64,000 nt of DNA from Methanolobus vulcani (lineage in GTDB: Archaea > Halobacteriota > Methanosarcinia > Methanosarcinales > Methanosarcinaceae). Location: NCBI RefSeq assembly GCF_900100715.1, contig NZ_FNCA01000011.1:1-64000 (forward strand). The letters run 5' to 3'. Made by a program: the position numbers and the translations under genes. The notes beneath the pieces were generated by a model. The model was given only the letters and a program-made list of their open reading frames with translations. It had not been told where the DNA came from and did no database searches. Positions 1,835-42,520 of this stretch are shown piece by piece (positions within the stretch are counted from its first letter, which is position 1; every line of letters starts with the position of its first letter).

Positions 1835-4800
1835 TTAGGTTGTCAGCCTCTTATACAAAAGCGGCAACATTTCCGGTAACATCAATGCATCATCAATAAT
1901 TGTATATCCTACATCGGAAAAGATGTTATTGAGATATTCTCCCGGATTCTTATCCACAGTTATACAGAAGAAATGCATTCCACGATTTTTTCCTTCAGAG
2001 ATTGCCATTCGGGTATCTTCCTGTGCAATATCGCCCTGATATGAATCTTCACCTCTGGCTCTGTCATAGGGTTCTCCATCAGACAACAATACGAGCATTT
2101 TAGTTCTTGCACCATTTTTTTCCAGTTTCTTAATGGAATGCCTGATAGCCGGTCCAAGGCGCGTGTTTGACTCGGAAGACAGTATGCTCATTCTCCGTGC
2201 AACGTCATCTGAGAATCTCTCATCGAATTCTTTGATCTTGAAATATTCCACATTATCTTTGCTCTTGCCCGAAAACGCATAGATGGCATACTTGTCACCA
2301 ATGCTCTCAAGCGCCTGGCTCATTATTATCAAAGCATCCTTTTCCACATCAATTATGCTCCTTCCATCCATTCCAAGTATCTTGCGTGTGGAGGCGCTGA
2401 CATCCATGAGGAACAGGGTTGCAACGTCTCTTTCCTGTTTGTCCCAACGAATATACATTCCCTCGTCGGGATTGGACCCACATTTTTTAGTTATCAGGGA
2501 TTCTGTGTAGGCATCAATGTCAATTTCAGTACCGTCATTCTGTCCTTTCATCCTGTGGAATGCTTCAGGTTTCATAAGGCCGAATGTGTGCCTGAGAAGT
2601 GCGATCTCATTGCCATAACGTTCCAATGCTTTTTTGTAATGAGCGGTGTTTCCTCCGTATGGTTCCATCTCATTGACAGTGCTCCACTCTGAGCGATAAT
2701 CGTTGATGGTGCTGTCCCACTCATCATATTTGTAACTGCCAAGCACACGCCAGTTATTTTCAAGAGGTTGTGTAGGTTTATCGGTAGCCTGCTCCTTTGG
2801 TCTTTCTTCATCAGCGGTAAGGTCAGCTTCAGTTTCCGGGATGAAGTTCTTGATGACATTTTCATATGGTTTTGTCATCATAGGGTCAGTTTGACCGGTT
2901 GCACCGACATCCATTCCACGATACTCGATATTTCTGATCATTCTGTAGTTGATCTCACCGAGTGGGCCAAGTTTGTCTTCCAGAGAGCGGTATGTTTCAA
3001 AAGCCAGCTCTAAGGTTGAAAAGGTGCTGGATCCTGTGGTGAATATCCTTTTTTCAAGTTCATCCTGCAAGCTTCTCTGAATTCCAGGCAGAATATCATC
3101 AAGTTCAAGTTCTGATCTTGCTTCATGTCCGGTGGAAATCCATAACAAACCCTCCATGAACTTCTCAAGTTCACTTTCAGGGATGTCCCTCATAAAAAGC
3201 ATCTTGTGGCGTACTTCCTCAAGGTCAGTACGAACTCCTCTGTAATGCTCCATTATCATATACTCTACACGTGCATCTTCCAGTAATCCAAATATGGTTG
3301 CTGCAAGTATCTGGTTTGGAAAAAGTGAGAGCAAATCTACAAGGTCGATGCTTTCAGCATCTTGTTTATTATCGGTAATTGCTACAGGATATTTTTCTTT
3401 GATCTTTTTTTCAAGTTCTGTCAATTTTTCCGGTTCAACATCCAGCGAACTGTAGCGTGCATGTCCTACTTCATGCATCACACTGAGCTTGTAGATCTTG
3501 AAATTATCCTCTATGTTCTCGTAAACTCCAATCTTTGGTGCGAGATAGATTGTATTGCCAGCGATTATAGGGTTCATTCCCTGAACTTCAATTTGCAGAG
3601 GAAGAGCTGCCATTGAACGTATTATGAAATTGCTACCTGAAAGACCGAGGGCATAGTATCTCAGGACGTTGGCAACTTTCTTAAGAGCAATCGCACCGGT
3701 AAGTTCCTCCACAAATTCTCTGGAGCTTTTTGATTCAAGTGAAAAATAGGCTTTTCCGGCAGGTTTTTTTTCATCTGCCGCTTCCATTCCTTTAAGTGTC
3801 CACTCTTCCAACTCTTCCATGTCCAGTTTTTCAAGAAGGCCGGGAGAATTTGCAAAGAAATCCGGTGCGAGTTTTCTGTCTTTTCCGTAAACTCTGATTC
3901 CTATGTTTGCCCATTTCTCAGCATTTTCAGGTTTGTTTTTCTCTGAAAAGTTCCCTAAATTGGCAAAGAATGCACTGGTAAGAGCTTCTTCTTTTTGAAG
4001 AAGTTTATCAGCTATACTGAATATTTCTTCATGCAGTTGAGGTGGTATTTTTGATAAAGATGCAACCGATTTTTCGTAGTATTCTCTGGCACTATCCGGG
4101 TCTTGCAATGCAATTCCCTCTCCAATCTCTGCCCAGATGGAGAACATATCTTTGGCAAGAATGTTGTAGGCGGCTGAAGCATTCTCAAAATAGCTTTCAA
4201 GGCATTCGGTCTGAATATCTGCAAGTTTTATTCCTGCATCTACAATCTCTGATCTTGTTTTATGAGTAGTATTTTCATATTTTCCAAGTGCAAAGGTAGT
4301 TGTTATAAACTCTCTGAGAGCATCTTTGTTTTTGTTTAATTCTCTGGTTCCTTTGTTTATCCATTCCAATGCTTCGGAAAGTTCCAGTGTATCAATGTGC
4401 TGTGGGTATGTTTTTAGAAAATAACTTGCACTTTTCCTGTCTTCATTTGCAAGACTACAGGTGGCATCAATTAATCTTGTCAGCTTTTCATCATCTGTTT
4501 TTTCCACAATTATTCCGGCATTTCTGAACAATGCCATTGTGACAAGTTCTCCGCATTCCAATGTTTCTTTCATAGAAATAAGGAGCTTTTTTCTTTTCTG
4601 AGGTGGAATTTCGGTTAATATCTTTTCAGTGATATCAATAAGTTCAATGCCTGTAAGCCAGTGTATGCTACTGATTTTTTCTACTATTTCGCAGTAGGTT
4701 GCAAAGTCGGTTTCATCAATTACAGAACTTAGCTGTAGCAGATGTTCAAAATAGGCTTCTGCAACTTTTGTGTTGATATTTCCAAGCTCACTTCCATGAG

Positions 4801-5257
4801 AAACCAGTTTCAGGAATCTTTCAGGTTCTGTTGTGACAACAACTTCTCCTGTGTGTTTGAAATAGGCTATAGCTATCCATTTGTTCTGTTCAGATAGTTC
4901 AATTCCTCTCAGGGTCCATTTTTCGAGAAGTTCAAATCCACCTTTATTAATTATGTCAGGTGATGAGTCAAAGAATCCTTCACAACATGAAATGCTAAGC
5001 AGCGATACTTTCTTTGCAAGTTCAAGCCAGTTGTTAAACTCTGTTTTTCCAAGGGTTTTGTATACTCCGGGTGCTGCTCCAAGATAAGCAATGAGGATTC
5101 TTTGCCCTCGCTTTTGTGCACCTTTTCCTGCGTGGAGTATAGTTTCCAGTGCATTCTCTTCAAGATTGTCAAATCCTGTTGCAAGCTTAGAAACCAGCGA
5201 ACTTTCCAGTGATGGAAAATAGGATGATATAAGTCCTGTAATTTTATCAGTACTCAT
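1835..5257 (-). CDS. norD: NorD/CbbO-like von Willebrand A protein with long repeat N-terminus
   Basis: A 1140-residue protein whose C-terminal third is a von Willebrand A domain: MIDAS DVSAST near residue 951, and later LLSDGEP. This is the arrangement of NorD/CbbO, partner of the AAA+ protein NorQ/CbbQ in activating nitric oxide reductase or Rubisco. Typical NorD is near 630 residues. Here roughly the first 500 residues are helical repeats of about 36-42 residues with W-x2-G and YF-x-SP positions (for example YFANSPGLLEKL-like, EEWTLKGMEAAD). In the middle, MHEVGHARYSS (H592-E-x2-H596) followed by EDARVEY resembles a zinc-site motif. The gene lies 84 bases downstream of norQ and divergent from the cbb3-type oxidase, which suggests it helps mature that oxidase. 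The target is inference; family assignment is firm. Confidence 0.88.
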   Translation of the reverse strand: MSTDKITGLISSYFPSLESSLVSKLATGFDNLEENALETILHAGKGAQKRGQRILIAYLGAAPGVYKTLGKTEFNNWLELAKKVSLLSISCCEGFFDSSPDIINKGGFELLEKWTLRGIELSEQNKWIAIAYFKHTGEVVVTTEPERFLKLVSHGSELGNINTKVAEAYFEHLLQLSSVIDETDFATYCEIVEKISSIHWLTGIELIDITEKILTEIPPQKRKKLLISMKETLECGELVTMALFRNAGIIVEKTDDEKLTRLIDATCSLANEDRKSASYFLKTYPQHIDTLELSEALEWINKGTRELNKNKDALREFITTTFALGKYENTTHKTRSEIVDAGIKLADIQTECLESYFENASAAYNILAKDMFSIWAEIGEGIALQDPDSAREYYEKSVASLSKIPPQLHEEIFSIADKLLQKEEALTSAFFANLGNFSEKNKPENAEKWANIGIRVYGKDRKLAPDFFANSPGLLEKLDMEELEEWTLKGMEAADEKKPAGKAYFSLESKSSREFVEELTGAIALKKVANVLRYYALGLSGSNFIIRSMAALPLQIEVQGMNPIIAGNTIYLAPKIGVYENIEDNFKIYKLSVMHEVGHARYSSLDVEPEKLTELEKKIKEKYPVAITDNKQDAESIDLVDLLSLFPNQILAATIFGLLEDARVEYMIMEHYRGVRTDLEEVRHKMLFMRDIPESELEKFMEGLLWISTGHEARSELELDDILPGIQRSLQDELEKRIFTTGSSTFSTLELAFETYRSLEDKLGPLGEINYRMIRNIEYRGMDVGATGQTDPMMTKPYENVIKNFIPETEADLTADEERPKEQATDKPTQPLENNWRVLGSYKYDEWDSTINDYRSEWSTVNEMEPYGGNTAHYKKALERYGNEIALLRHTFGLMKPEAFHRMKGQNDGTEIDIDAYTESLITKKCGSNPDEGMYIRWDKQERDVATLFLMDVSASTRKILGMDGRSIIDVEKDALIIMSQALESIGDKYAIYAFSGKSKDNVEYFKIKEFDERFSDDVARRMSILSSESNTRLGPAIRHSIKKLEKNGARTKMLVLLSDGEPYDRARGEDSYQGDIAQEDTRMAISEGKNRGMHFFCITVDKNPGEYLNNIFSDVGYTIIDDALMLPEMLPLLYKRLTT

Positions 5258-5341
5258 AGTCTCTCTTTTTTCAGAGTTGTGGGTTGGCGTGCAGATCCAC
5301 TCCAGTACTCATTTATTCCCGCTATTCGTCAATCCCTATAT

Positions 5342-6172
5342 TTATCCCATAATCGCTGCAATGATCTCATCAATACTTCTCTGCAGGTCCTGATTGTCAG
5401 TAATAGGCTGTGACATTGCTATTTTGCAGGCTTCTTTTGCATCGATGCCTTCCCGGATGAGCTTGCCCGCATAGATGAGCAGACGTGTGCTTACCCCTTC
5501 TTCAAGTCCGTGGTGTTTGAAGTTCCTTATGCTCTGTCCGATTTCAACGAGTCTGGCTGCTGTTTGTTCGTCTACCTGTGTCTCATGAGCTACGATCCGC
5601 TTTTCAAGTTCAGCAGGAGGATAATCAAATTCAATGGCAACAAATCTCTGTCTTGTGCTCTGTTTCATATCCTTGACAATGCTCTGGTAGCCGGGGTTGT
5701 ATGAAACTGAGAGCATGAACTCATCCGGTGCTTTTACGATAACTCCGAGTTTGTCGATTGGGATTATGCGCCTGTCATCGGTAAGCGGGTGAATGACTAC
5801 TATGGTGTCCTTTCTGGCTTCCACAACTTCATCAAGGTAACAGATGGCACCGCTTTTCACAGCTTCTGTGAGAGGTCCGTCACTCCATTCAACGTTCTCT
5901 CCCTTGATGAGAAATCTTCCCACAAGGTCGGTTGCTGTGAGGTCCTCGTGGCAGGCAATTGTTATCAGAGGACGCTGTAATTTCCATGCCATGTATTCCA
6001 TGAATCGTGTTTTTCCACAACCTGTCGGTCCTTTGAGATTTACCGGAAGTTTGTTCCTGTAAGCAGCTATAAAAATCTCCACTTCGTTGCCTACCGGTAC
6101 GTAATAAGGTTCTTCAGTTATCAGGTATTCATCAACTGGCAGTTCCTTGGATAAAGCGCATTTCATTGCCAT
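5342..6172 (-). CDS. norQ: NorQ/CbbQ-type MoxR AAA+ ATPase
   Basis: A 276-residue AAA+ ATPase with Walker A GPTGCGKT near residue 48, Walker B CYLDEV near 110 and the RQRFVAIEF sensor region, typical in size and layout for NorQ/CbbQ of the MoxR group. Such proteins form ring complexes with NorD/CbbO and use ATP to remodel a partner enzyme so that its metal centre is inserted or an inhibitor released. The ATG at 6172 is preceded by GAGGATTGCT. A GCA-ATG two codons on is a weaker alternative. The neighbouring norD and the divergent haem-copper oxidase suggest action on that oxidase. NorQ is classically linked to nitric oxide reductase, but no such reductase is in the window. Confidence 0.92.
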
Positions 6173-6342: not shown

Positions 6343-6453
6343 TTATCTCAGATTAATATAACCTGCTGCTAACCCCATGACAAATATCATTGCGATATAT
6401 AGGAGAATTACAAGCATGATTCCCATGGTGCTTGATTTGCCATTATCATTCAT
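6343..6453 (-). CDS. 36-residue single-helix membrane protein
   Basis: A small reading frame starting MNDNGKSSTMG and continuing as one hydrophobic helix (IMLVILLYIAMIFVMG) before the end YINLR. Length and form resemble the tiny single-helix subunits of haem-copper oxidases (CcoM, CcoQ, subunit IIa), but no family can be assigned by eye. It lies in the divergent gap between norQ and the oxidase, has an AT-rich TATA-like stretch about 45 bases upstream on its strand, and lacks a strong ribosome site. Whether it is translated is unproven; the coherent membrane helix in an otherwise AT-rich gap is the main support. Confidence 0.5.
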   Translation of the reverse strand: MNDNGKSSTMGIMLVILLYIAMIFVMGLAAGYINLR

Positions 6454-6712
6454 ATGTACCATATAAAAAGGTGTTAATCTTGTATAAGTATTTTTTTAAA
6501 TATTTTTTGATTAAAAAAGCTGCTTTACTTAATTTATAACATATGTATCATACATTGCTATGCAGTAATTTTCTTTACACAGATGCCACCTCTCTTTGTA
6601 ATAGTTGACAGGGTTTATTTTATATAGTATCAGTTTCCCAATTAAAATAGGAGATTTCAAGGGGTTTAAGCTATTTGAAAAAAACTTCTTGTTTTCAGGG
6701 GAGGTTAATTTA
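6454..6712. promoter_or_regulatory. Divergent promoter region of the oxidase island
   Basis: The plus-strand oxidase has a TATA-like TTTATTTTATATAG at about 6613-6626, some 87 bases before its ATG, and a strong ribosome site AGGGGAGGT at about 6697-6705. A palindrome ATGTAT-C-ATACAT spans 6543-6555 and could be an operator for either side. On the minus strand a T/A-rich run near 6485-6515 can serve as TATA box for the 36-residue gene. Confidence 0.45.
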
Positions 6713-9562
6713 ATGGAGTCTGAAAATAGTCTGCAAGAAGATGATGAATCGTTCTTACAAAACAAATCTGAGACTAATAATCAAAAAGATGAACTTGCCG
6801 GGGATAAGTTCATCGAAGGCGACGACGCAGTGAAATACTGGTTCATAGGGTCTTTATTATGGTTCCCTATATTTGCCACACTTGGATTTATACTGGCGAT
6901 AAAATTCTTCCAGCCTTATTTCTTAAGTGATGCGGCTTTCCTTACATTTGGCAGGATACGGCCTGCACATATCAATGGTGTGCTTTTTGGATTCGTTTCT
7001 TCGGGTCTGATAGGCAGTATGTTTTGGGCTATCCCAAGACTTGTGAATACGCAAATATATAGTGCCAGACTTGCCAAGTTATCTGCTGTACTCTGGAACT
7101 TCGCTCTTCTGACAGGAATATCCATGATCCTTTTCCTTGGTGATACACAGGGAAGGGAATATGCAGAACTTCCATGGTCAATCGACGTTCTTATAATGCT
7201 TGTATTATTGCTGATCCTTTACAACATTCTGCGCACTTTCGGACGCAGGACAGAGAAAAAACTTTATGTTTCCACCTGGTATTACACAGGTACGTTCATC
7301 TGGTTCCCTATTGTTTATTTTGTTGGTAATGTCATGTGGAACCCACCATCCGGTGCCCTTCAGGGTATTACCGATTCCATATTCAACTGGTACTATGGAC
7401 ACAACGTTCTGGGACTCTGGTTCACCACCCTTGGAATAGGTACTTGGTACTATGCAGTACCACGTATAATAAACAGGCCATTGTACAGTCACCTCCTTTC
7501 GGTTATAAGTTTCTTCACCATTGCATTCTTCTATACCGGCGTGGGAGGTCATCACCTGCTCCAGACACCAATACCTGAATGGGTAAAGACAATGGCTGTG
7601 GTGATGAGCATTCTAATGCTTGTACCTGTAGTTACTTTCGCTGTCAATCTGGGTATGACCCTTAGAGGCACATGGGATACCTTCACAAAGGATATTCCTT
7701 TCAGATTCATAGTCACAGGTTTCTTTTTCTATGTTCTCACTTCCATCCAGGGAAGTTATCAGGGTCTGAGAAGCACCAACTCATTCCTGCATTTCTCACA
7801 GTGGCCTGTAGGACATGCTCATCTTGCAATACTTGGAGGCTTTGGATTCCTTGCAGTAGGAATGATGTACTGGTTGATCCCTAAAATAACAAGGACAAAG
7901 ATATACAGTGAAAGACTAATGAGCATAAGCTGGTGGCTTGCACTTATAGGTTTTACCGGTTTTTTCCTCGCCATGACCATAGCAGGACTGGTGGCCAATT
8001 CAGCATGGTTCCAGAACATCACTGTAGCACCTGTTCTAAAGTTACTACAATTCTGGTATGTTACCAGAGCTATGGGCGGTGGACTGGTAGTGGTGGCAGG
8101 TTATGTCTTTGCATATAACACACTGCTGACATTCACGCACTCAAAGGAACCTCATGTAGAGGAGAATATCTTCAGCATATCTTCCAAACAAAGTTCCCGA
8201 CCACATTCATCATTGCAAAGAAAGTCCCAGCATGCTATAAGTATGCCTGTTATAGTATTCGGTGGTCTGGCTCTCTTCCTTCTGATGACCTGGATGGTGG
8301 TTGCCATGCCGGCACTTAATCTTGATTCTGTAAATGCCACGGATATGGCACATCCATATACCGAAATGGAAGCAAAGGGAAGAGTGCTCTATACGGAAAT
8401 GGGTTGTTTCTATTGTCATTCACAATTTGTAAGACCACAGGACTGGGCTATCGGAAGAATATCCGAACAGGGTGATTACTACTATGACTCACCTCATTTG
8501 CTGGGTACGGAGCGTACAGGTCCGGATCTGTCCCAGATTGGAGGAATGAGGCCTACAGGATGGCATTACCTGCATGACAGGGATGCAAGGACCACAAGTC
8601 CGAGTTCTATTATGCCTCCGTTCGGTTTCCTAACGGATACTGAACTTGATCAATTGGTAGCATATATCCAGAATCTTGGAACATACAATCTTGATGAGAT
8701 GAGTTTCCATCCTGAAGTTCCATATGAGTATCAGAACAAAGATCAGCCTTATGCAAACTATATGTCTGCTGCCATGATGAATTATAATTCAAGTGACCAG
8801 ACATATACAGGAGATCAGGCAACAGGTGAAGAATTTGCCACTATATTCGAAGAGGGCAAGCAAACTTACACTGAACGTTGTCTGGCATGTCATGGGTGTT
8901 CCGGAAATGCGCAGGGTCCATATGCAAGACATGTTGTAACTCAGCCTGCAAATCTGCATGAAAGGATAATGAGCTATATGCCGGAGCCTGGGGATCCTTA
9001 TCACTTCTGGCGTGTAAGTGAAGGTGTCCCAGGTACAGCAATGCCAAGCTGGAAACTGAGCCTAAACGAGACTGAAATCTGGAAGACGAATTTCTATGAA
9101 ATGAGCTTTGCAACAGGTTCCATCAGAACTGTTAGTGGTGATGTATCTGATGCAGAAGCAATTAACTTCTCTAACCAGACCCATATCACACCGCCTATTG
9201 CTGGAACGCAGGAACAGTTCGAGAAGGGACAGAAGCTCTTTAACCTGTACTGTTCCCAGTGTCACGGTGTTGACGGACAGGGAGATGGTGTTGCCTCTAT
9301 TCTGAGTTCAGGCGGATATATCAACCCGGAACCTGCAAATTTCACAGAATCCGGTGGTGATTTCCAGTACTACGGACAATATGTATGGAAGGTAAAGGAA
9401 GGTGTGGAGACCACAAACATGCCTCCATGGAAATATGCTCTCAGTGACGATGAGATATACATGGCTATATTCTATATCCAGAATTTCGCCACAACAGACG
9501 ATTACAATGCAAAATGGGGTCCATTGTATGAAAGTGAATATGCAAGAAACATGAGGAGCTGA
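6713..9562 (+). CDS. ccoN: Fused cbb3-type cytochrome c oxidase, CcoN-CcoO-CcoP-like
   Basis: A 949-residue membrane protein that reduces oxygen to water. Residues about 45-530 are a CcoN-type subunit I with about twelve helices. Visible ligands are H86 and H370 for the low-spin haem, H230, H280 and H281 for CuB, H368 for the high-spin haem, and Y274 six residues before H280, the cross-link tyrosine of C-family oxygen reductases. Next come a helix and a CcoO-like monohaem domain (CFYCH at about 565, then RTGPDLSQIGG, axial Met in SIMPPF). Two CcoP-like domains follow (CLACH at about 723 with TAMPSW; YCSQCH at about 847 with TNMPPW). N-O fusions exist, but a one-chain N-O-P is unusual. The ATG at 6713 is chosen for its AGGGGAGGT site; an in-frame TTG at 6605 lacks support. 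Two small subunit genes follow immediately. This is not expected in an anaerobic methanogen. Confidence 0.93.
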   Translation: MESENSLQEDDESFLQNKSETNNQKDELAGDKFIEGDDAVKYWFIGSLLWFPIFATLGFILAIKFFQPYFLSDAAFLTFGRIRPAHINGVLFGFVSSGLIGSMFWAIPRLVNTQIYSARLAKLSAVLWNFALLTGISMILFLGDTQGREYAELPWSIDVLIMLVLLLILYNILRTFGRRTEKKLYVSTWYYTGTFIWFPIVYFVGNVMWNPPSGALQGITDSIFNWYYGHNVLGLWFTTLGIGTWYYAVPRIINRPLYSHLLSVISFFTIAFFYTGVGGHHLLQTPIPEWVKTMAVVMSILMLVPVVTFAVNLGMTLRGTWDTFTKDIPFRFIVTGFFFYVLTSIQGSYQGLRSTNSFLHFSQWPVGHAHLAILGGFGFLAVGMMYWLIPKITRTKIYSERLMSISWWLALIGFTGFFLAMTIAGLVANSAWFQNITVAPVLKLLQFWYVTRAMGGGLVVVAGYVFAYNTLLTFTHSKEPHVEENIFSISSKQSSRPHSSLQRKSQHAISMPVIVFGGLALFLLMTWMVVAMPALNLDSVNATDMAHPYTEMEAKGRVLYTEMGCFYCHSQFVRPQDWAIGRISEQGDYYYDSPHLLGTERTGPDLSQIGGMRPTGWHYLHDRDARTTSPSSIMPPFGFLTDTELDQLVAYIQNLGTYNLDEMSFHPEVPYEYQNKDQPYANYMSAAMMNYNSSDQTYTGDQATGEEFATIFEEGKQTYTERCLACHGCSGNAQGPYARHVVTQPANLHERIMSYMPEPGDPYHFWRVSEGVPGTAMPSWKLSLNETEIWKTNFYEMSFATGSIRTVSGDVSDAEAINFSNQTHITPPIAGTQEQFEKGQKLFNLYCSQCHGVDGQGDGVASILSSGGYINPEPANFTESGGDFQYYGQYVWKVKEGVETTNMPPWKYALSDDEIYMAIFYIQNFATTDDYNAKWGPLYESEYARNMRS

Positions 9563-9568: not shown

Positions 9569-9763
9569 ATGGATGAATATAATCTGGCAATGTTTGTGGT
9601 AGCATTCTCATTATTCCTCATTTTCCTTGGTTTTTTAATATGGGGGATTAAGACCGGCCAGTTCAAGGACATAGAAGAGGCAAAGTATAGGATGCTTGAG
9701 ATAGACAGGCCGGGTAGAACAGGTACTGATGAACTGGATGAAGTTAGGGGGGAGATAATATGA
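9569..9763 (+). CDS. CcoS-like small cbb3 oxidase protein
   Basis: A 64-residue protein with one N-terminal membrane helix (residues 7-27, MFVVAFSLFLIFLGFLIWG) followed by KTGQFKDIEEAKYRML. That helix-then-GQF-DD/EE pattern matches CcoS, the small cbb3 assembly factor whose tail reads W-x-x-x-x-GQFDDLE. CcoS is needed for cofactor insertion into CcoN. The gene starts six bases after the fused oxidase and overlaps the next gene by ATGA, so the three are translationally coupled. A CcoQ-like structural subunit is the alternative. Confidence 0.7.
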   Translation: MDEYNLAMFVVAFSLFLIFLGFLIWGIKTGQFKDIEEAKYRMLEIDRPGRTGTDELDEVRGEII

Positions 9764-10041
9764 GTTTTACTATGGAGTATGCATCCTATGTTAACTCTTT
9801 GGCATGGCTAACTGTTCTCATAGTGCTGTCAAGCCTGATATTTGTCTGGCTAAGCGCAAAGAACAAGGACCACTACAGTCTGGAAGATGCAAATTCCCAT
9901 GCAGAGGAGTTTGGAGGAGTGATAGCTGAATCCCATGGACCTATCACAATTTTCCTATATGTGGTCTACATTATACTATTCGTATGGACAGTGGCCTACT
10001 TTATGGCACACTGGGCTGAGTTTGGAAGTATTTCAATGTGA
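9760..10041 (+). CDS. Two-helix membrane protein of the oxidase operon
   Basis: A 93-residue protein with helices at about 13-32 and 66-86. The second is preceded by AESHGPITIFLY. The layout (short tail, helix, hydrophilic loop of about 30 residues, helix) recalls the membrane anchor of CcoP, whose cytochrome part is here fused to CcoN instead. It could therefore be the detached anchor or a CcoQ-like subunit. The ATGA overlap with the CcoS-like gene and the gap of 13 bases to the P-type ATPase place it firmly in the oxidase operon. Exact role is inference. Confidence 0.65.
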   Translation: MSFTMEYASYVNSLAWLTVLIVLSSLIFVWLSAKNKDHYSLEDANSHAEEFGGVIAESHGPITIFLYVVYIILFVWTVAYFMAHWAEFGSISM

Positions 10042-10054: not shown

Positions 10055-12502
10055 ATGAAGGAAACGGAAACCTCAGGTATAACCAATGCAAAAGATTTGA
10101 GTGTGGATGAATTATTCACCAAATTAGGATCGACTTCAAAAGGCATAAAAGATAGTGATGTACAGGGAAGGCTTGAACAATACGGCTATAACGAACTGCT
10201 TGAAAAGAAGACAAGTCCTTTCATAAAGTTCATCGGTTATTTCTGGGGTCCGATTCCCTGGATGATCGAGATAGCAGCTTTGCTTTCGGCATTTATACAA
10301 CGCTGGGAAGATTTTGCTATCATCTCAATCCTTTTGATTTTAAATGGTGTGGTAGGTTTCTGGCAAGAAAACAAAGCAGATAATGCCATTGAGTTACTTA
10401 AAAATAAAATGGCTCTTCGGGCAAGGGTTCTAAGAGATGGTAAATGGATAACTCTTCCTGCACGTGAACTTGTGCCGGGAGATGTTATACGTCTTCGTTC
10501 AGGTGATATTGTGCCGGCAGATGTCAAACTCTTTGATGGTGATTATCTGCAGATAGATGAGTCCGCATTGACCGGAGAATCTCTGCCAGCAGATAAAGGT
10601 ATCAACGATATTGGTTTTTCAGGTTCCATTATCCAGAAAGGAGAAATGAACGGACTCGTATTTGCTACTGGAATGGATACTTATTTTGGCAAGACTACAA
10701 AATTGCTGACAAACGTCAAGACACAGAGTCATTTCCAGAAAGCTATCATTAAGATCGGTGATTATCTAATAGTCCTTGCTGCCATTCTGGTTGCAGTTGT
10801 TTTTATTGTTGCTGTTTTCAGGCAGGAGAGTCTTGTAGAGACACTTCAGTTCGCTCTGGTACTTGTTGTTGCTGCAATACCTGCAGCTTTGCCCGCAGTA
10901 CTTTCGGTATCCATGGCTGTTGGTGCTACAAACCTTGCAGGAAAGGGTGCTATTGTAAGTAAACTGGTGTCAATCGAAGAAATGGCAGGAATGGATGTTC
11001 TCTGTTCCGATAAGACCGGTACGATCACAAAGAATGAACTGACGTTGTCTGACATGATCCCATTCGGTTATTATACAACAGAGGATCTTCTGATTTACAG
11101 TGCTCTTGCTTCCAGAGAGGAAGATAATGACCCAATCGATAATGCGGTTCTGAGAAAGATAGCAACTCTGGATGGTGTACAGGAAAAAACGGCTGGTTAT
11201 AATGTACTGAATTTTAAACCGTTTGACCCTGTTATCAAACATACGGAGGCCAGTATTGAGAGTTCTGATGGCAGAAAGTTCAAGGTAGCCAAAGGGGCAC
11301 CACAGGTTCTTCTTGATATGGCTATTAACAAGGATAGTATCAAGGATGATGTGGAGGAGAAAGTAAATGTCCTTGCATCGAAAGGTTATCGTCCTCTTGG
11401 AGTTGGTGTATGCGAAGGGAATGAATGTCACTTTGCAGGACTGATCGGACTGTATGATCCTCCTCATGAAGATTCTGCAGAAACGATAGATACGGCTGTT
11501 AGCATGGGCGTTGATGTTAAGATGATCACTGGTGACCATGCTGCCATTGCAAAGGAGATTGCAAGCCAGATAGGTCTGGGTACTAATATCACCACTGCTT
11601 CTGAACTGGAAGATAAGACTGACATTCAGGCACAGGAGGTAGTTGACAAGGCTGATGGGTTCGCACAGGTGTTCCCGGAACATAAGTACAGAATAGTGGA
11701 GCTACTTCAGGATGACGGACATATAGTAGGTATGACCGGTGATGGAGTAAATGATGCTCCAGCGCTTAAGAAGGCAGATGCCGGAATTGCAGTTGCCGGA
11801 GCTACGGATGCAGCAAGGTCTGCTGCTGATATTGTGTTCACTGCCCCGGGTCTTTCAACGATAATCGATTCGATAAAAGAGAGCCGAAAAATATTCCAGC
11901 GTATGAAGAGCTATTCGATATACAGGATAGCTGAAACTGTACGTGTGTTATTCTTTATTGCAACTTCGATTATTGCTTTTAACTTCTATCCCGTGACCGC
12001 TATTATGATAGTATTGCTGGCACTGTTCAATGATGCTCCTATAATGGCTATTGCATATGATAATGTGAATTATTCACCTTTCCCTGAGAAATGGAATATA
12101 AGGGAAGTCATCAGTATGGCAACTTTCCTGGGAATTATAGGTGTGATATCTTCATTCACGATATTTTATATCGGACTAAATGTTCTTAATCTGAATCAGG
12201 ATGTACTACAGTCATTCATATTCCTGAAACTTGCAGTTGCAGGACATCTCACAATATTCGTTGCACGTACAAGAGGTCCTTTCTGGTCTATCAAGCCAAG
12301 TGGCATACTCTTCTGGTCCACGATTGGTACCAAATTCCTTGCAACCCTCGTTGTTGTCTATGGTTTCTACATATCACCGATAGGCTGGAAGCTTGCAGGC
12401 ATTGTATGGCTGTATGCACTTGTGGCTTTTGTGATAACTGATCTGATAAAAGTGAGATTGTACCATCTGCTGGATCATAAAGGTATAATTTTCCAGAGAT
12501 GA
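10055..12502 (+). CDS. P3A-type plasma-membrane H+-ATPase
   Basis: An 815-residue P-type ATPase. The phosphorylation motif SDKTGT has its Asp at residue 319, the actuator motif is TGES, the hinge is MTGDGVNDAPALKKADAG, and helix 4 carries IPAALPAV. The tail-side motif AIAYDNVNYSP is characteristic of fungal, plant and archaeal P3A proton pumps. There is no CPC metal motif and no heavy-metal domain, so it is not the copper pump CcoI that usually accompanies cbb3 oxidases. It would export protons at the cost of ATP. The gene follows the oxidase subunits by 13 bases with no terminator, so probably shares their transcript. Link to oxidase function (pH or membrane-potential control) is inference. 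Confidence 0.9.
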   Translation: MKETETSGITNAKDLSVDELFTKLGSTSKGIKDSDVQGRLEQYGYNELLEKKTSPFIKFIGYFWGPIPWMIEIAALLSAFIQRWEDFAIISILLILNGVVGFWQENKADNAIELLKNKMALRARVLRDGKWITLPARELVPGDVIRLRSGDIVPADVKLFDGDYLQIDESALTGESLPADKGINDIGFSGSIIQKGEMNGLVFATGMDTYFGKTTKLLTNVKTQSHFQKAIIKIGDYLIVLAAILVAVVFIVAVFRQESLVETLQFALVLVVAAIPAALPAVLSVSMAVGATNLAGKGAIVSKLVSIEEMAGMDVLCSDKTGTITKNELTLSDMIPFGYYTTEDLLIYSALASREEDNDPIDNAVLRKIATLDGVQEKTAGYNVLNFKPFDPVIKHTEASIESSDGRKFKVAKGAPQVLLDMAINKDSIKDDVEEKVNVLASKGYRPLGVGVCEGNECHFAGLIGLYDPPHEDSAETIDTAVSMGVDVKMITGDHAAIAKEIASQIGLGTNITTASELEDKTDIQAQEVVDKADGFAQVFPEHKYRIVELLQDDGHIVGMTGDGVNDAPALKKADAGIAVAGATDAARSAADIVFTAPGLSTIIDSIKESRKIFQRMKSYSIYRIAETVRVLFFIATSIIAFNFYPVTAIMIVLLALFNDAPIMAIAYDNVNYSPFPEKWNIREVISMATFLGIIGVISSFTIFYIGLNVLNLNQDVLQSFIFLKLAVAGHLTIFVARTRGPFWSIKPSGILFWSTIGTKFLATLVVVYGFYISPIGWKLAGIVWLYALVAFVITDLIKVRLYHLLDHKGIIFQR

Positions 12503-18798: not shown

Positions 18799-18977
18799 AC
18801 TTTTTCTCCAGAATATAATTATCATTCACTATATATCCAGTATCCTTTTAGGCTTTTCTGCCACCTTTTAAGTGTAAAATCATGCTATGTTTTCTCAGGG
18901 AGATTTATTATACGGTGTAGTATATTTCTACATTTATTATATTTATGATGTATCTTCTCAAAGGTTGCGGGTATAAG

Positions 18978-21900
18978 ATGAAAAAACAATTAAAATACTA
19001 CGGCTTATCCTTAATATTCTGCTTAATCATATTCTTTACAATTATTTCGGTCAATGCAGCAGAAGTAGATTCACAAACAGAACTAAGTTCCAGTGATATT
19101 TCAAATGGGTCTCAATTATCGATGGCTCCTCTAAATCCTGCATTTCTTCAATATCAGGAAGAACTGGAACAGAGTCAAAATGATGCATCAGGTGCAGATA
19201 ACCTGATGTCCGTGTCTAGTTTGGTATTACCGGTCAGTCAATCAAATCTACTATTTTCAAATGAAAATGAATCATCTGATATATTTACTCCTTCAAACGG
19301 TTATATGCCTTCACCTGTAGACCTCTCTCATCTTTCTCCCGTAAGCATGGATGCCTTACTTGCCGACGATACTATCAGAACTTCAGGTCTTGAACTCATG
19401 GGGTCTGAAGTATCATACCCGTCACGATATGACCTGCGTGATGAAAATGGTGTCACAGCAGTAAGAGATCAGGGACAGGCTGGAAGTTGCTGGGCACATG
19501 CATCGATAGCATCCCTAGAATCCTACCTTTTATATAATCGATCTGAAACCTGGGACTTTTCGGAGAATAACGTAAAGAATACACTTGCATCTTCTTATCC
19601 GAATGGATTTGACCGTGATGCTGACGGTGGAGGAAGCCCATTCATGACAGCTGCATATCTTACAAGGTGGGATGGACCGGTACTCGAGTCCGATGATCCA
19701 TACAATGACCTATCAGGCATATCTCCCTCAGACATAACAGTGGCAAAACACGTTCAAGAGGTACTTATGCTTCCTGAACTAAATCATTCGGATGATATCT
19801 TTAGATGGGGTCTGACCAATTATGGTGCAATAGCAATATTCATGGAGTTTTATGACTCTTCGATGAATTTAGAAAACAATAGTTATTACTTCAGTAGTGA
19901 TCCTGATGAAGTTGATAGTGGAAATCACCTTGTGACTCTTGTAGGCTGGGATGACAACTATAGCAAATATAATTTTACACCCACTGCTCCTGATGATGGC
20001 GCTTATATTATCAAGAATTCCTGGGGAGATAACTGGGGTGAAGATGGATATTTCTATATCTCATATTACGATAACACACTTCAATATTCCTGCACAATTT
20101 TTACTGCTGAAAATGTAAGTGATTTTGATCATATCTATCAGTATGACGAACTTGGTTTGGTAAATGATTATGGCTTTTCCAATACCACAGGATATGGGGC
20201 AAATATCTTTACTGCATCAACAAATGAAACTTTAGAGGCAGTAAGCTTCTACACAACCGATTCAAATTCCTTCTATAACATATCTGTCTATCTGGACCCG
20301 GTATCCGGTCCAATCAACAGTTCAGGTCCTGTATCGGTACAAAACGGAACAATGGCCATTGCCGGATACCATACAATTGATCTGGATACAAACGTTTCAC
20401 TTAATGCAGGTCAGAATTTTTCAGTGGTTGTAAACTTCACAACACCTGCCTATAATTATCCTCTTCCAGTAGAATATCCGATGTCAGGTTGGAGTAGCAA
20501 TGCACATGCAGAAGCAGGTCAGAGTTATGTAAGTTCTAATGGAAACGAATGGGAAGATATAAGCGAATCTGATGCAAATGTATGCATCAAAGCGTTCACA
20601 ACAGAAAATAAAGAGCCACAAACTGCATTTGTTGCAGGTACAAGATACGTTCATGTTAATGAGTCTGTAGATTTCCATGATGCAAGTCTTTTCTCACCGG
20701 AAAGCTGGGAATGGGACTTTGGGGATAATTCTACATCATCAGTACAAAATCCGTTGCATTCTTATTCAGATGCTGGCGTTTATAATGTATCACTGAATGC
20801 ATCGAACTCTTTTGGAAATAACATTTCCACAAGAACTTCGTTTATTCATGTTCTCAATTCAACAATTGTTGTCAATAGCAGTGGAAGTGCTGATTTCACG
20901 ACAATCCGTGAAGCGGTTGATGCTGCATCTGATGGTGACACCATTGTTGTTGAATCTGGTACTTATAATGAGAATTTGTATTTTAAAAATGATAATATCA
21001 GTCTTGTTTCATCGACAGGCAATCCTGAAGATGTCAGGATTATTTCATCTTCTTCCAGTCACGTTGTTATCTACGTAAAAGCAAATTACATCACTATTTC
21101 AGGTATAAGTGCCGAAGATGGCTCTACTGCAATAGTCGTTGATTCATCAATTGGGTGTAACATAAGTAATTGCTATGCATTTGGAAGTACATATGGTATC
21201 TATCTCTATAATTCTCAGGACAACAGTGTCTCAAATTGTACTTCATATGAAAATTCATATGGTTTACGTTTGAGTAGTTCTATGAATAATGTTCTGGCTA
21301 ATAATTCTATGAATAATAACACGTTAAATTCATATTTTGATTCAAACGTCAATATTGTGGGAACAAGTAATCTGGTAGACGGAAAACCAATATATTATCT
21401 TGTGAACAGCTCCGATCAGGTTATAGATGCCAGTTCCAATGCCGGACTTGTCTATTTATTTAATTGTTCTAACATAACAGTAGAAGATCTGGAAATCGAG
21501 AACAATTATTGTGGATTTTACCTCTACGACAGCAACAATGTAAGCATTGAAAATTGTACGAGCACTGGTAACCGATATGGTGTATATCTTTCTTCTTCTT
21601 CTGATAACAACACAATCTATAGTTGCAATATAAGTGAAATTTCCACTTATGGTCTCTTACTGGCTGAATGCAGCAATAATCTCATTTATAACAACTATTT
21701 CAACAACAGCAACAATGTCTATATTTCAGGTGTCGGGTCAAATGAATGGAACTCTATAATGACAAATGGAACCAACATTATCAACGGAAGCTATCTTGGC
21801 GGAAACTTCTGGGCAACACCTGCAGGAACAGGCTGGAGCCAGACTGAGTACTCCGTTGGAAATGGTTTCTGTGCTGCATATGAGATAACAGATGACGGAA

Positions 21901-22679
21901 ACAATACTGATTATCTTCCACTGACCTTGAATAGTGTTCAACCAACTGTTTCAGGTGACAGTTCCAATCAAAACAATGATGATGGAATACGTGTAAAAAT
22001 AGCCACAACCACATCATCTCCGTCAAATGTGATTGCAACAGATTCAAGTGTACGTTTCGTAGGCAGGGACGCTGAAGTGCAATATGTTTTCAGTAAAGAT
22101 AACACCCCTGTAAATGAGATTAGTTTTGAATCCGATGTCAATGAAGGCTATATTATGGCAAGTGTCAGTCTTCTTAATGAACTGCCGGAGAGCTCTCCCG
22201 CACCTACGTCAGTAACGGTTTATCAGGGAATGGAAATTCTCCTTGGTGACAAAGACTTCTCATCTGGCATTGGTGATGCGAAGATATCTTTCTCAGTTTC
22301 AAAAGAATGGCTTGAGTCAAATGGTTTTGGTGAAGGAGATATCCGCATGGAACATTTCTCTGATGATATTTGGAACAAACTCCCAACTGTTGTAACAGGC
22401 GAAGATGACGAATATTTCTACTTTGAAGCGACAACAACAGGATTTTCACCATTTATGATCTGTGCAGATAATACTACGGTATCTGCTGATAATAATGTTC
22501 AGACAGCTGACTCTGCAATAGTTGCAAGTAGTCCGGGTTCCACGGCGACAAACGAGGATATTCAGGTTACCAATGAGAACGACAGTTCCGATTCAGGTAA
22601 TCTGCTATCTATCTTTGTTATATTGTTGATAGTTGGAGCTATAGGTGTCATTTACTGGAAAAAGGGGATCAAGAGATGA
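18978..22679 (+). CDS. Secreted papain-like protease with PKD, NosD-type helix and PGF-pre-PGF domain
   Basis: About 1233 residues from ATG 18978, chosen because the signal peptide (KYYGLSLIFCLIIFFTIIS) then starts near the N-terminus; ATG 18945 is an alternative. A propeptide with SPVDLSHLSPVSMD leads to a C1A papain domain with catalytic C171 (GSCWAH), H317 and N347 (IIKNSWGDNWG). Then come a beta domain, a PKD domain (WEWDFGDNSTSS), a long NosD/pectate-lyase-like right-handed helix (repeats of NCTSxxNxYGLxL type), a PGF-pre-PGF domain near residues 1000-1160 and a final helix with basic end (YWKKGIKR). It should be a surface-anchored cysteine protease. The next gene is a close paralogue. 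Neither ends in a PGF motif. Substrate unknown. Confidence 0.88.
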   Translation: MKKQLKYYGLSLIFCLIIFFTIISVNAAEVDSQTELSSSDISNGSQLSMAPLNPAFLQYQEELEQSQNDASGADNLMSVSSLVLPVSQSNLLFSNENESSDIFTPSNGYMPSPVDLSHLSPVSMDALLADDTIRTSGLELMGSEVSYPSRYDLRDENGVTAVRDQGQAGSCWAHASIASLESYLLYNRSETWDFSENNVKNTLASSYPNGFDRDADGGGSPFMTAAYLTRWDGPVLESDDPYNDLSGISPSDITVAKHVQEVLMLPELNHSDDIFRWGLTNYGAIAIFMEFYDSSMNLENNSYYFSSDPDEVDSGNHLVTLVGWDDNYSKYNFTPTAPDDGAYIIKNSWGDNWGEDGYFYISYYDNTLQYSCTIFTAENVSDFDHIYQYDELGLVNDYGFSNTTGYGANIFTASTNETLEAVSFYTTDSNSFYNISVYLDPVSGPINSSGPVSVQNGTMAIAGYHTIDLDTNVSLNAGQNFSVVVNFTTPAYNYPLPVEYPMSGWSSNAHAEAGQSYVSSNGNEWEDISESDANVCIKAFTTENKEPQTAFVAGTRYVHVNESVDFHDASLFSPESWEWDFGDNSTSSVQNPLHSYSDAGVYNVSLNASNSFGNNISTRTSFIHVLNSTIVVNSSGSADFTTIREAVDAASDGDTIVVESGTYNENLYFKNDNISLVSSTGNPEDVRIISSSSSHVVIYVKANYITISGISAEDGSTAIVVDSSIGCNISNCYAFGSTYGIYLYNSQDNSVSNCTSYENSYGLRLSSSMNNVLANNSMNNNTLNSYFDSNVNIVGTSNLVDGKPIYYLVNSSDQVIDASSNAGLVYLFNCSNITVEDLEIENNYCGFYLYDSNNVSIENCTSTGNRYGVYLSSSSDNNTIYSCNISEISTYGLLLAECSNNLIYNNYFNNSNNVYISGVGSNEWNSIMTNGTNIINGSYLGGNFWATPAGTGWSQTEYSVGNGFCAAYEITDDGNNTDYLPLTLNSVQPTVSGDSSNQNNDDGIRVKIATTTSSPSNVIATDSSVRFVGRDAEVQYVFSKDNTPVNEISFESDVNEGYIMASVSLLNELPESSPAPTSVTVYQGMEILLGDKDFSSGIGDAKISFSVSKEWLESNGFGEGDIRMEHFSDDIWNKLPTVVTGEDDEYFYFEATTTGFSPFMICADNTTVSADNNVQTADSAIVASSPGSTATNEDIQVTNENDSSDSGNLLSIFVILLIVGAIGVIYWKKGIKR

Positions 22680-22702
22680 AAATGTGATCCTTTATTTTTA
22701 TT
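22666..22702 (+). terminator. Hairpin at end of first protease gene
   Basis: GGATCA (22666-22671) pairs with TGATCC (22685-22690) across the stop codon, followed by TTTATTTTTATTTT. Confidence 0.55.
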
Positions 22703-22846
22703 TTAAGTGAAAACAGAATGGAATTTGGAGCTTAATCTCTCATAGTTTTTTGCTCCATTTTTTTGCAACAATTATTTTAATTACTACTAATATACTATTT
22801 CTCCTTACATTTTTAATACTCTCGCATTTTAAGAAGGTACATATAA

Positions 22847-25800
22847 ATGAAAAATCCATTATTATCAAATCACCTGTTATTTGCATGTTGCATCGTGTTG
22901 ATATTACTATCATCCTGTTGTGCTGCAACAGAAAATGATACATATATGAGTTCTGATCAGAATGACTCTTCGCCTGGGATTTTGATTGCACCTCTGAATC
23001 CTGCATTTGTAGAATATCAGCAAGAACTGGTGGATGAACAAAAATCAGTTCAGGTAAACTCAAATGATTTGACTTTTTCAAGTCTCGCATTGCCTGTCAG
23101 TTCAAAAAATAATGTGCCTTCTGAAACGTTCGATCATCCCACAGGACTTATTCCTTCTCCTGTAGATCTCTCTCATCTTTCTCCTGTAAGTATGGATTAT
23201 CTAATGGCTGATGATACCATTAAGACTTCAGGTCTTGAACTGATGAGTTCTGAAGTATCGTATCCTTCCTGTTTTGACTTGCGTGAGCACAATGGTGTCA
23301 CGGCAGTTAGGGACCAGGGCCAGGCCGGAAGCTGCTGGACTCATTCAGCTACTGCATCCCTCGAATCTTATCTCCTTTTTAACAGATCAGAAACATGGGA
23401 TTTTTCTGAGAATAACATAAAGGATACTCTGGTATCAAGCAATCCCGATGGATTCACCCGCACATATGATGATGGTGGTTTTGACCTTTTTGATGCTGCT
23501 TACTACTCAAGATGGAGTGGCCCTGTACTGGAATCCGATGATCCGTACAATGATCACTCAGGTTTTTCCCCGGATAACCTTCCAGTAGCAAAACATGTGC
23601 AGGAAATTATGATCCTTCCTGGTTTTGAAGGCAATGACACTCTTTATAAATGGATGCTTACTCACTATGGAGCCATATCAGTAGCCATAATGCAGGATGA
23701 TTCTTATTTTGATTCCGATAATAACAGTTATTATTACAATGGCCCGGTTGTATATGCAAACCATGCTGTGACTCTGGTTGGCTGGGATGACAATTATTCT
23801 GCTCAGAATTTCACTCCCACAGCTCCTGGAAATGGAGCGTTCATAATCAAAAATTCCTGGGGTGATTCCTGGGGTGAGGATGGATTCTACTATGTATCCT
23901 ACTATGACACAGTAATGGGAAATGATGAAGGTATAGATGGAATTGGTACCAAACCATATGCTGGCAATTTCCTGTACACGGCAGAGAACGTAAGCAATTA
24001 TGGCCGTGTTTATCAGTATGATGAACTTGGATGGGTCGGTTGTGCAGGTTACAATAACAGCACTGCTTCAGGTGCTAATATCTTCACAGCGAGTTCAAAT
24101 GAGACTCTTGAGGCTGTGAGCTTTTATACTGTAGATTCTAACTCCATTTACAATATCTCTGTGTATCTGAACCCTGAATCAGGTCCTGTTAATAGTTCAG
24201 GTCCGGTATCTGTTCAGAATGGAACGATTGCCATTGCAGGTTATCATACTATTGACCTTGATACAAATGTTTCACTTAATGCCGGTCAGAATTTCTCAGT
24301 TGTTGTAGAATTCACAACACCGAATTATACTTCCCCGATAGCAATCGAAAAAGTTGTAAAAGATTATAGTGAAAATGCCCATGCTGAAGCAGGCCAGAGT
24401 TTTATGAGTTTCAATGGCAGCCAGTGGACAGACATTTCGGATTCCAATATGAATGTATGTATCAAAGCGTTCACCACAGAGAACAAAGAGCCTGATTCTG
24501 CATTTGTTGCAGGTACAAGATATGTTCATGTCAATGAGACAGTTGATTTCCATGATGTAAGTCTGTTCTCACCGGAAAGCTGGGAATGGGACTTTGGGGA
24601 CAATTCAACGTCATCGCTTCAGAACCCACTGCACTCTTATTCAGAAACCGGGATCTACACAGTATCACTGAATGCATCAAACTCTTATGGAAACAATACT
24701 TCTGTAAGGACTTCTTTCATTCAGGTTCTTAATTCAACAATTGTTGTCAATAGCAGTGGTAGTGCTGATTTTACTACTATAACTGAAGCAATCAATGCTG
24801 CATCTGATGGTGATACGGTTGTTATCGAACCTGGAACTTATACGGAGAATTTGTATCTGGACACAGACAACATCAGTATTCTGTCATCTACAGGTAATCC
24901 TGAAGATGTCAGAATAGTCTCTGAGGATTCAAGTGAGATTACAATTTATTTAATAGCTGATAATGTTAATATTTCAGGCATCAATGCTGTAGATGGATAT
25001 ATTGGAATACTTGTTTATTTTTCAGAAGGATGTAACATAAGTAATTGCTCTGCTTCTGGAAATACGTATGGTATCTATTTCTATTATTCTCAGGACAACA
25101 GCGTCTCAAATTGTACTTCAGATGAGAACACATATGGATTACGTTTACGTGGTTCAGAGAACAACATCCTGAATGACAATTCTATGAATAATAACACGTT
25201 TAATTCATATTTTGATTCAAACGCCAATATTGTAGGAACGGATAATCTGGTTGACGGAAAGCCGATATATTACCTTGTGAACAGTTCGGATCAGGTTCTA
25301 GATGCCAGTTCCAATGCAGGAATTGTCTATTTATTTAATTGTTCCAACGTAACAGTAGAGGATCTGGAAATTGAGAATAACTATTGTGGATTTTACCTCT
25401 ACGACAGCGACAATGTGAGCATCGATAATTGTACGAGTACTGATAATCGATATGGTGTTTATCTTTCTTCTTCAGATAACAACACTATCTATAGTTGCAA
25501 TATAAGTGACATTTCCACTTATGGTCTTTCACTGGTTGATTGCAGTGACAATCTGATCTATAACAATTACTTCAACAGCAGTGCCAATGTCTATGTTTCA
25601 GGCGGTACGTCCAACGACTGGAATATCACAATGGCAAATGGAATCAACATCATCAATGAAAGTTATCTTGGTGGAAATTTCTGGGCAAAGCCAGATAACA
25701 CTGGTTGGAGCCAGACAGAATATTCTATTGGAAATGGTTTCTGCGATGCATATGAGATCACAGATGACGGAAACAATACTGATTATCTTCCGCTGACCTT

Positions 25801-26536
25801 GAATAGTGTTCAACCGGCGGTTTCAGATGACAGTTCCAGCCATGATGACGGAATACGTGTAAAAATAGCCACAATCACTTCTTCTGCGTCAAATATTGTT
25901 GCAACTGATTCCAGCGTACGTTTTGTTGGTAAAGATGCTGAAGTAAAATATGTATTCACAGGTGATTCCACTCCGGTAAATGAGATAAGTTTTGAATCCG
26001 GGACAAATCAAGGTTATGTCATGGCAACTGTCAGTTTGCTAAATGAACTGCCGGAAAGTTCTCCCGCACCTTCATCTGTATCGGTTTATCAGGGAATGGA
26101 TATTCTTCTTGGTGATGAAGATTTCTCATCTGGCATTGGTGATGCGAAGATCTCCTTCTCAGTATCAAGAGAATGGCTAGAGTCCAATGGTTTTGTTGAA
26201 GGGGATATCCGCATGGAACACTTTTCAGATGGTATCTGGAACACACTTCCAACGGTTGTGACAGGTGAAGATGATGAGTACATCTACTTTGAAGCGACAA
26301 CAACAGGATTTTCACCATTCATTATCTGTGTTGATATCTCAGGAGACGGTCAGGTTAACGCAGGCTCTTCTTCAGGCAATAAAGGCGACACCGCAGTTTC
26401 AGAGAATATCATACCGGATGTTCTGCAGGATTCTGATCAATCCCGGAACAATTCTGTACGCACATTAACAACGTTGTCCGGTTTGATAGTGGCCACAATT
26501 CTGGGATTAGTTTTCAAGATGAAGAAATCAGAGTAA
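22847..26536 (+). CDS. Paralogous secreted papain-like protease with PKD, NosD-type helix and PGF-pre-PGF domain
   Basis: 1229 residues with the same order as its neighbour: signal peptide (HLLFACCIVLILLSSCCAA), propeptide with SPVDLSHLSPVSMD, C1A domain with C163 (GSCWTH), H306 and N336 (IIKNSWGDSWG), PKD domain, NosD-like repeats, PGF-pre-PGF domain and a C-terminal helix (LSGLIVATILGLVF) with KMKKSE. Long stretches are nearly identical to the upstream gene, so this is a tandem duplication that has since diverged, most in the signal peptide, around the catalytic His and in the extreme C-terminus. AAGAAGGTACAT supports the ATG at 22847. Each gene appears to have its own promoter. Function as surface protease is inferred from intact catalytic residues. 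Confidence 0.88.
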   Translation: MKNPLLSNHLLFACCIVLILLSSCCAATENDTYMSSDQNDSSPGILIAPLNPAFVEYQQELVDEQKSVQVNSNDLTFSSLALPVSSKNNVPSETFDHPTGLIPSPVDLSHLSPVSMDYLMADDTIKTSGLELMSSEVSYPSCFDLREHNGVTAVRDQGQAGSCWTHSATASLESYLLFNRSETWDFSENNIKDTLVSSNPDGFTRTYDDGGFDLFDAAYYSRWSGPVLESDDPYNDHSGFSPDNLPVAKHVQEIMILPGFEGNDTLYKWMLTHYGAISVAIMQDDSYFDSDNNSYYYNGPVVYANHAVTLVGWDDNYSAQNFTPTAPGNGAFIIKNSWGDSWGEDGFYYVSYYDTVMGNDEGIDGIGTKPYAGNFLYTAENVSNYGRVYQYDELGWVGCAGYNNSTASGANIFTASSNETLEAVSFYTVDSNSIYNISVYLNPESGPVNSSGPVSVQNGTIAIAGYHTIDLDTNVSLNAGQNFSVVVEFTTPNYTSPIAIEKVVKDYSENAHAEAGQSFMSFNGSQWTDISDSNMNVCIKAFTTENKEPDSAFVAGTRYVHVNETVDFHDVSLFSPESWEWDFGDNSTSSLQNPLHSYSETGIYTVSLNASNSYGNNTSVRTSFIQVLNSTIVVNSSGSADFTTITEAINAASDGDTVVIEPGTYTENLYLDTDNISILSSTGNPEDVRIVSEDSSEITIYLIADNVNISGINAVDGYIGILVYFSEGCNISNCSASGNTYGIYFYYSQDNSVSNCTSDENTYGLRLRGSENNILNDNSMNNNTFNSYFDSNANIVGTDNLVDGKPIYYLVNSSDQVLDASSNAGIVYLFNCSNVTVEDLEIENNYCGFYLYDSDNVSIDNCTSTDNRYGVYLSSSDNNTIYSCNISDISTYGLSLVDCSDNLIYNNYFNSSANVYVSGGTSNDWNITMANGINIINESYLGGNFWAKPDNTGWSQTEYSIGNGFCDAYEITDDGNNTDYLPLTLNSVQPAVSDDSSSHDDGIRVKIATITSSASNIVATDSSVRFVGKDAEVKYVFTGDSTPVNEISFESGTNQGYVMATVSLLNELPESSPAPSSVSVYQGMDILLGDEDFSSGIGDAKISFSVSREWLESNGFVEGDIRMEHFSDGIWNTLPTVVTGEDDEYIYFEATTTGFSPFIICVDISGDGQVNAGSSSGNKGDTAVSENIIPDVLQDSDQSRNNSVRTLTTLSGLIVATILGLVFKMKKSE

Positions 26537-32869: not shown

Positions 32870-32886
32870 TATTCCATCTCATCCTT

Positions 32887-33657: not shown

Positions 33658-33676
33658 ATCAACACTTCTTTTTGGT

Positions 33677-35001: not shown

Positions 35002-35011
35002 ATTTACACCA

Positions 35012-35620: not shown

Positions 35621-35621
35621 A

Positions 35622-42220: not shown

Positions 42221-42256
42221 TTTACAGTTGTAGTATTAGAGATTAAAATCTATTCA

Positions 42257-42300
42257 GAAGCTTTGGTAAAACCTGAGCTTCTTTTACTTTTCTATTTGTA
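42257..42300 (+). terminator. Terminator of the giant gene
   Basis: GAAGCT pairs with AGCTTC around 13 bases that contain a GGT/ACC pair, followed by TTTTACTTTTC, 37 bases past the stop. Confidence 0.6.
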
Positions 42301-42501: not shown

Positions 42502-42520
42502 ACTGTTTGTAATATAATGC

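Follow-up and report, generated by a model that had tools for sequence, protein, structure and literature searches.

A single open reading frame of the methanogen Methanolobus vulcani encodes what is, as judged from its sequence, a C-type (cbb3-like) oxygen reductase rather than an NO reductase, with CcoN, CcoO and the dihaem part of CcoP fused into one chain. We propose, at a probability of about 0.75, that this divergent C-type enzyme reduces O2 to water with c-type cytochromes as electron donor, mainly removing O2 traces. The window, i.e. the whole stretch of 64,000 nucleotides that was analysed, is located on a 101-kb contig of a 2.95 Mb genome with an estimated completeness of 99.98%. The oxidase locus contains the following features:

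6713–9562, plus strand: predicted fused CcoN-CcoO-CcoP (dihaem) oxygen reductase, 949 aa
6827–8152, plus strand: CcoN part, residues 39–480; invariant His 86, 230, 280, 281, 368 and 370 and helix-VII Tyr274
8240–8782, plus strand: CcoO part, about residues 510–690; membrane anchor, CxxCH at 565, Met634
8819–9112, plus strand: CcoP-like c-haem domain 1, about residues 703–800; CxxCH at 723, Met777
9206–9487, plus strand: CcoP-like c-haem domain 2, about residues 832–925; CxxCH at 847, Met903
9569–9763, plus strand: CcoS/FixS cbb3 assembly protein, 64 aa (Pfam FixS, 7.1e-10)
9760–10041, plus strand: 93-aa two-helix membrane protein, probable separately encoded N-terminal anchor of CcoP
10055–12502, plus strand: plasma-membrane type H+ P-type ATPase (TIGR01647, 1070 bits), adjoining the cassette on its 3' side in Methanolobus alone; doubtfully linked to the oxidase

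CcoN, CcoO and CcoP domains in one reading frame

The frame runs without interruption for 949 aa to a stop at 9562, with GGAGGT located upstream of the start ATG at 6713. An extension started by TTG at 6605 gives a longer frame and is not required. Pfam recognises COX1 (6.5e-83, residues 39–456), FixO (2.9e-32, residues 520–687) and Cytochrome_CBB3 (1.4e-22, in two stretches) on this chain, in agreement with an earlier sequence-only reading that had seen CcoN, CcoO and diheme CcoP-like parts in it. The same reading had assigned a downstream Met to each of three CxxCH sites. These start at C565, C723 and C847, and the corresponding M634, M777 and M903 are indeed invariant in an alignment of 17 homologues. 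In sequence searches against the PDB, the CcoN and CcoO subunits of solved cbb3 oxidases score far above NORs. Full-length homologues with 53–93% identity occur in many genomes, and the dN/dS of the oxidase gene is 0.04–0.07, reflecting strongly purifying selection in both halves. Such selection argues for function, and the 949-aa frame is neither a chance occurrence nor a relic.

An assembly factor and a putative CcoP anchor accompany the oxidase

Although initially regarded as a single gene, the oxidase is accompanied by CcoS and by a 93-aa anchor-like protein, and this arrangement is general for one-chain loci in archaea and bacteria. The CcoS of the window scores 38.9 bits against Pfam FixS (cut-off 23.1). 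Reading of ORFs revealed CcoS-like frames 3' of other oxidases, and all 11 of those tested match Pfam FixS, two of them from outside the one-chain group. In tblastn searches, the 93-aa protein appeared 3' of the oxidase at 19 of the 20 other one-chain loci examined (comprising G120, G136, G125, G139, G046, the ANME-2 MAG, five bacteria and the Methanoperedens loci), while the twentieth, L045, has the ORF when read.

Several comparisons point, weakly but consistently, to a resemblance of this small protein to the N-terminal anchor of CcoP. FixP_N matches 10 of 17 orthologues, one of these above the cut-off (26.0 bits vs 24.9); the window's own protein has no FixP_N match in Pfam. The top three PDB matches of the family profile are all CcoP, at weak E-values of 0.24–1.2, and profile comparison gave a probability of 35%. 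A fold search with a structure model of the 93-aa protein returned no match. Glu57 of this protein is invariant and lines up with E49 of CcoP, a proton-channel residue. CcoP seems to be split in these loci, with the anchor encoded by its own gene and the haem domains fused to CcoO.

A further small frame upstream of the oxidase encodes a 36-aa single-helix peptide (MNDNGKSSTMGIMLVILLYIAMIFVMGLAAGYINLR, window 6353–6460, minus strand), which is 86–100% conserved in G120, G136, G135 and G113, irrespective of whether the genome has the oxidase. It was considered as a CcoM/CcoQ candidate and rejected, as it is present in relatives without the oxidase and does not occur beside other one-chain loci.

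Active-site residues and phylogeny place the chain with C-type oxygen reductases

The ligands of haem b, haem b3 and CuB (H86, H230, H280, H281, H368 and H370) are invariant in the one-chain group, and the B site probably contains copper. Tyr274 on helix VII (Tyr-II) aligns with Y251 of P. stutzeri CcoN and is likewise invariant across the group, whereas all NORs compared, among them NOR-like proteins from this order, have T, S or A at this position. Type C enzymes are recognised by a tyrosine on helix VII, and NORs lack the cross-linked tyrosine (PMC3084760). In a tree of 52 CcoN/NOR domains the NORs, represented by nine NOR-like rows, separate at 100/100 and the oxidase is placed on the C-type side; type A references were left out of this tree, and the single type B row could not be placed. 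A first version was distorted by long ba3 and Paraburkholderia rows, both of which were removed. The predicted fold of the chain gives TM-scores (by target length) of 0.84–0.87 with cbb3 CcoN vs 0.77–0.81 with cNOR, for a model with a mean pLDDT of only 62. The tyrosine and the tree together point to O2 as the substrate.

The host, previously described as a methanogen-like genome, contains mcrA. The tree and active-site residues, combined with mcrA, thus bear out the proposal that a genuine methanogen carries a C-type oxygen reductase with three c-haem sites of its own.

The oxidase is patchily distributed and has probably moved between domains

Near-full-length homologues are present in 4 of 27 Methanolobus genomes, in a single genome from another genus within the family, in one ANME-2 cluster MAG (family f3) and in a minority of Methanoperedenaceae. 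When 393 genomes drawn from the phylum were searched, strict matches occurred in only five, all belonging to the window's own family. Bacterial one-chain copies in a species-level collection derive from Desulfosporosinus, Clostridiales, Syntrophaceae, Thermoleophilia and Actinobacteria, several of these being MAGs. The one-chain form is common to two archaeal groups and several bacterial phyla. Several Methanoperedenaceae (L021–L026) also encode a NOR-like haem-copper protein, which is adjacent to a c-haem protein and separate from the one-chain oxidase.

In the full-length tree, the Methanolobus/ANME-2 copies are sister to a bacterial group, with the main Methanoperedens group located outside, and archaeal monophyly of the one-chain form is rejected (AU test, p-AU 0.007). 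Transfer between the domains is therefore probable, and the Methanolobus-type copy found in G046, a member of the Methanoperedenaceae, is another sign of transfer. Neither history suggested by the sequence-only reading is retained: an archaeal lineage trait is contradicted by the bacterial one-chain copies and the AU test, while nesting within a single bacterial clade is not compatible with the trees.

Within Methanolobus the cassette is accessory, as seen from its presence in few genomes and from empty sites. Between the NorQ-like gene and an Obg-like GTPase gene, G135 and G137 contain neither oxidase nor H+-ATPase, and G113 contains the ATPase alone, suggesting that the cassette can be gained or lost here as a unit. 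The base composition of the oxidase gene resembles that of the neighbouring genes. The H+-ATPase was considered as a partner of the oxidase and is probably a neighbour only, given that G113 has it without the oxidase and that there is no close copy at the G139 locus. In the ANME-2 MAG, the cassette is followed by a gene for a ferritin-like protein (L046:9413–9961), in line with an oxidative-stress setting.

A VWA protein of 1140 aa (1835–6172, minus strand) is paired with the NorQ/CbbQ-family AAA protein. Two adjacent paralogous surface proteins of about 1230–1240 aa (18945–26536) each contain papain-like protease, lectin-like, PKD and NosD/beta-helix domains. A 1964-aa VWA/Big_1 protein (36326–42220) lies between two gene clusters (31400–50435 in all) that resemble each other as if duplicated, both with pilin-like DUF7289/DUF7308 genes and related ones.

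Proposed electron route and physiological role

We propose that the CcoN part houses a haem b3-CuB centre where O2 is reduced to water. Electrons would enter from outside the membrane via the c-haems in the CcoP-like and CcoO-like domains of the fused chain, to be passed on to haem b and from there to the b3-CuB centre. CcoS (9569–9763) would assist in cofactor assembly, and the 93-aa protein (9760–10041) may occupy the usual place of the CcoP membrane helices. In Methanolobus, the electrons probably originate from the methanophenazine pool (or from membrane dehydrogenases) and arrive via multihaem cytochromes c. The host contains CcmF-like and, judged by eye for the ABC part, CcmABC-like genes, as well as two proteins with 9 and 8 CxxCH motifs, and hence can make c-type cytochromes. 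A gene for a plastocyanin-like cupredoxin is located about 1 kb from the oxidase in G139 (L082:11724–12092), and its product is a possible other electron donor in that organism.

The expectation of a bd-type oxidase in methanogens is not borne out by this genome. The 949-aa chain is the only haem-copper oxidase in the host genome, in which no cytochrome bd was found; the search for cytochrome bd was negative in G000, G125 and G139 and positive in G120 and G136.

We infer this electron route, and a role in scavenging rather than growth, with the main task of the enzyme likely being the removal of O2 traces at the membrane surface. The residue equivalent to E323 of P. stutzeri CcoN, a proton channel residue, is Gln346 in the Methanolobus chain. 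Gln is also found at this position in two-chain relatives, and in Azoarcus and Cupriavidus proteins. Our preference for scavenging over growth is a weak one, and is based on the cassette being rare and accessory and on the Gln in place of E323. Flavodiiron proteins and further defences against O2 are in use among strict anaerobes as well.

Alternative explanations

Going by the genomic setting, the chain could instead reduce or detoxify NO, with the NorQ-like and VWA proteins encoded next to it serving in its maturation. The NorQ/CbbQ-family AAA gene and the VWA gene adjoin the oxidase in divergent orientation; norQ and norD flank bacterial norCB. NorQ and NorD load iron into cNOR (PMC9976466). 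This reading is nevertheless very improbable in view of Tyr274, which NORs lack, and of the 100/100 split in the tree, and the grouping with nitric oxide reductases that the sequence-only reading had warned of was not observed. Furthermore, NorQ is present in 27 of 27 Methanolobus genomes vs 4 of 27 for the oxidase, so that its nearness to the oxidase is incidental, and one-chain loci outside these Methanolobus showed no NorQ/VWA neighbours. Some Methanoperedens genomes have a separate NOR-like enzyme. NorQ and VWA were accordingly rejected as maturation partners. Bacterial contamination or mis-binning, another caveat raised earlier, might be considered given that close bacterial relatives exist, yet its probability is negligible. 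The oxidase and mcrA are located on the same contig in G136 (3.15 Mb, one contig), G120 (2.79 Mb) and G139 (2.43 Mb), and the genes flanking the oxidase in G136 and G120 are the same as in the window, many of whose other genes are archaeal in type. The presence of oxidase and mcrA on one chromosome-sized contig in three relatives excludes contamination.

A laterally acquired accessory gene that is unexpressed or non-functional would be consistent with the patchy distribution and with the empty sites seen at this locus. In a 2025 survey, matches to haem-copper oxidases came up in three Methanosarcinales strains, for which no reports of expression or function were found (PMC7618691). Intact frames in several families, the low dN/dS in both halves, a base composition like that of the neighbours and the conservation of the whole three-gene cassette all make this reading very improbable. 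C-type oxidases conserve energy in bacteria, and the Methanolobus enzyme could be a true respiratory oxidase that couples O2 reduction to charge separation or proton pumping, and thus conserves energy by microaerobic respiration. The alignment of the invariant anchor Glu57 with CcoP E49 is in keeping with such a function. In addition, Y246, S263 and Tyr-II are kept, residue kinds of the alternative K-channel (PMC3084760). The Gln at the E323 position argues against respiration, as does the restriction of the cassette to 4 of 27 genus members, a better fit to a niche tolerance gene than to a core respiratory chain. We know of no aerobic growth of such methanogens, and consider the respiratory reading unlikely. 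Doubtful to a somewhat greater degree is the broader proposal that some methylotrophic methanogens and ANME archaea perform real aerobic respiration, the fused C-type oxidase connecting the methanogenic membrane chain to O2 with energy conserved; the one-chain form may in that case have arisen in Methanosarcinales and spread from there to anaerobic bacteria. O2 scavenging by a divergent C-type enzyme remains our preferred reading.

Implications

Methanogens are treated as strict anaerobes. An intact gene under strong selection, in a conserved cassette with a cbb3 assembly factor that is common to methane-oxidising archaea and anaerobic bacteria, makes membrane O2 reduction by a methanogen haem-copper enzyme a directly testable question, and one that bears on the endurance of oxygen by methanogens in wetland surface layers. 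Close copies also exist in other archaea and in anaerobic bacteria, which suggests that these organisms share a means of withstanding, or exploiting, small amounts of O2. For biochemists, the locus provides a compact cbb3 in which the domains for electron entry are covalently attached.

Comparison with known systems

Canonical cbb3 oxidases (ccoNOQP/fixNOQP; P. stutzeri 3mk7, S. meliloti pSymA, Shewanella pSbal01) and the Methanolobus locus have in common a CcoN with six His and the helix-VII Tyr, a mono-haem CcoO, a dihaem CcoP and the CcoS assembly factor. In contrast to the canonical systems, N, O and the CcoP dihaem domains form one chain in Methanolobus, the CcoP anchor is apparently a separate gene, no CcoQ was recognised at the locus and identity in CcoN is about 30%. 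Scores against the NCBIfam equivalogs all fall under the cut-offs (273 of 583 bits for ccoN, 93 of 201 for ccoO and 38 of 180 for ccoP). Canonical properties, the usual electron donors and proton pumping among them, are thus not to be assumed, and the enzyme is a divergent C-type relative rather than a canonical cbb3. cNOR with NorQ/NorD belongs to the same superfamily, and a NorQ-like neighbour is found in the window too, but cNOR is without Tyr-II and forms a separate clade, and the NorQ-like gene of the window is genus-wide and unlinked.

The best-scoring NCBIfam model is that of the N-O fused 'bifunctional cbb3 subunit I/II' (PRK14485), which is also a CcoN-CcoO fusion; the score of 438 bits is below the cut-off of 1080, and the match covers residues 31–647 only, leaving the CcoP part unmatched. 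Two-chain relatives from Coriobacteriia, Actinobacteria and Anaerolineae (L049–L066) display 40–48% identity and consist of a separate CcoN followed by a CcoO-multihaem chain, which has five CxxCH in the four examples counted; in L049 a small FixS protein follows. The one-chain bacterial homologues (Desulfosporosinus sp. BG, Clostridiales AS27, Syntrophaceae UBA6252, Thermoleophilia and Actinobacteria MAGs) are 54–59% identical and share the N-O-P fusion and its three CxxCH, and downstream they have a small CcoS-like ORF and the anchor protein; they differ in their bacterial hosts and in having no close H+-ATPase copy directly downstream. In the open-access papers searched, we found no description of a one-chain N-O-P cbb3 accompanied by CcoS and a split-off CcoP anchor, which does not prove its absence. 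N-O fusions are already known from PRK14485; we file the one-chain N-O-P form, with its CcoS and split anchor, as a new C-type variant.
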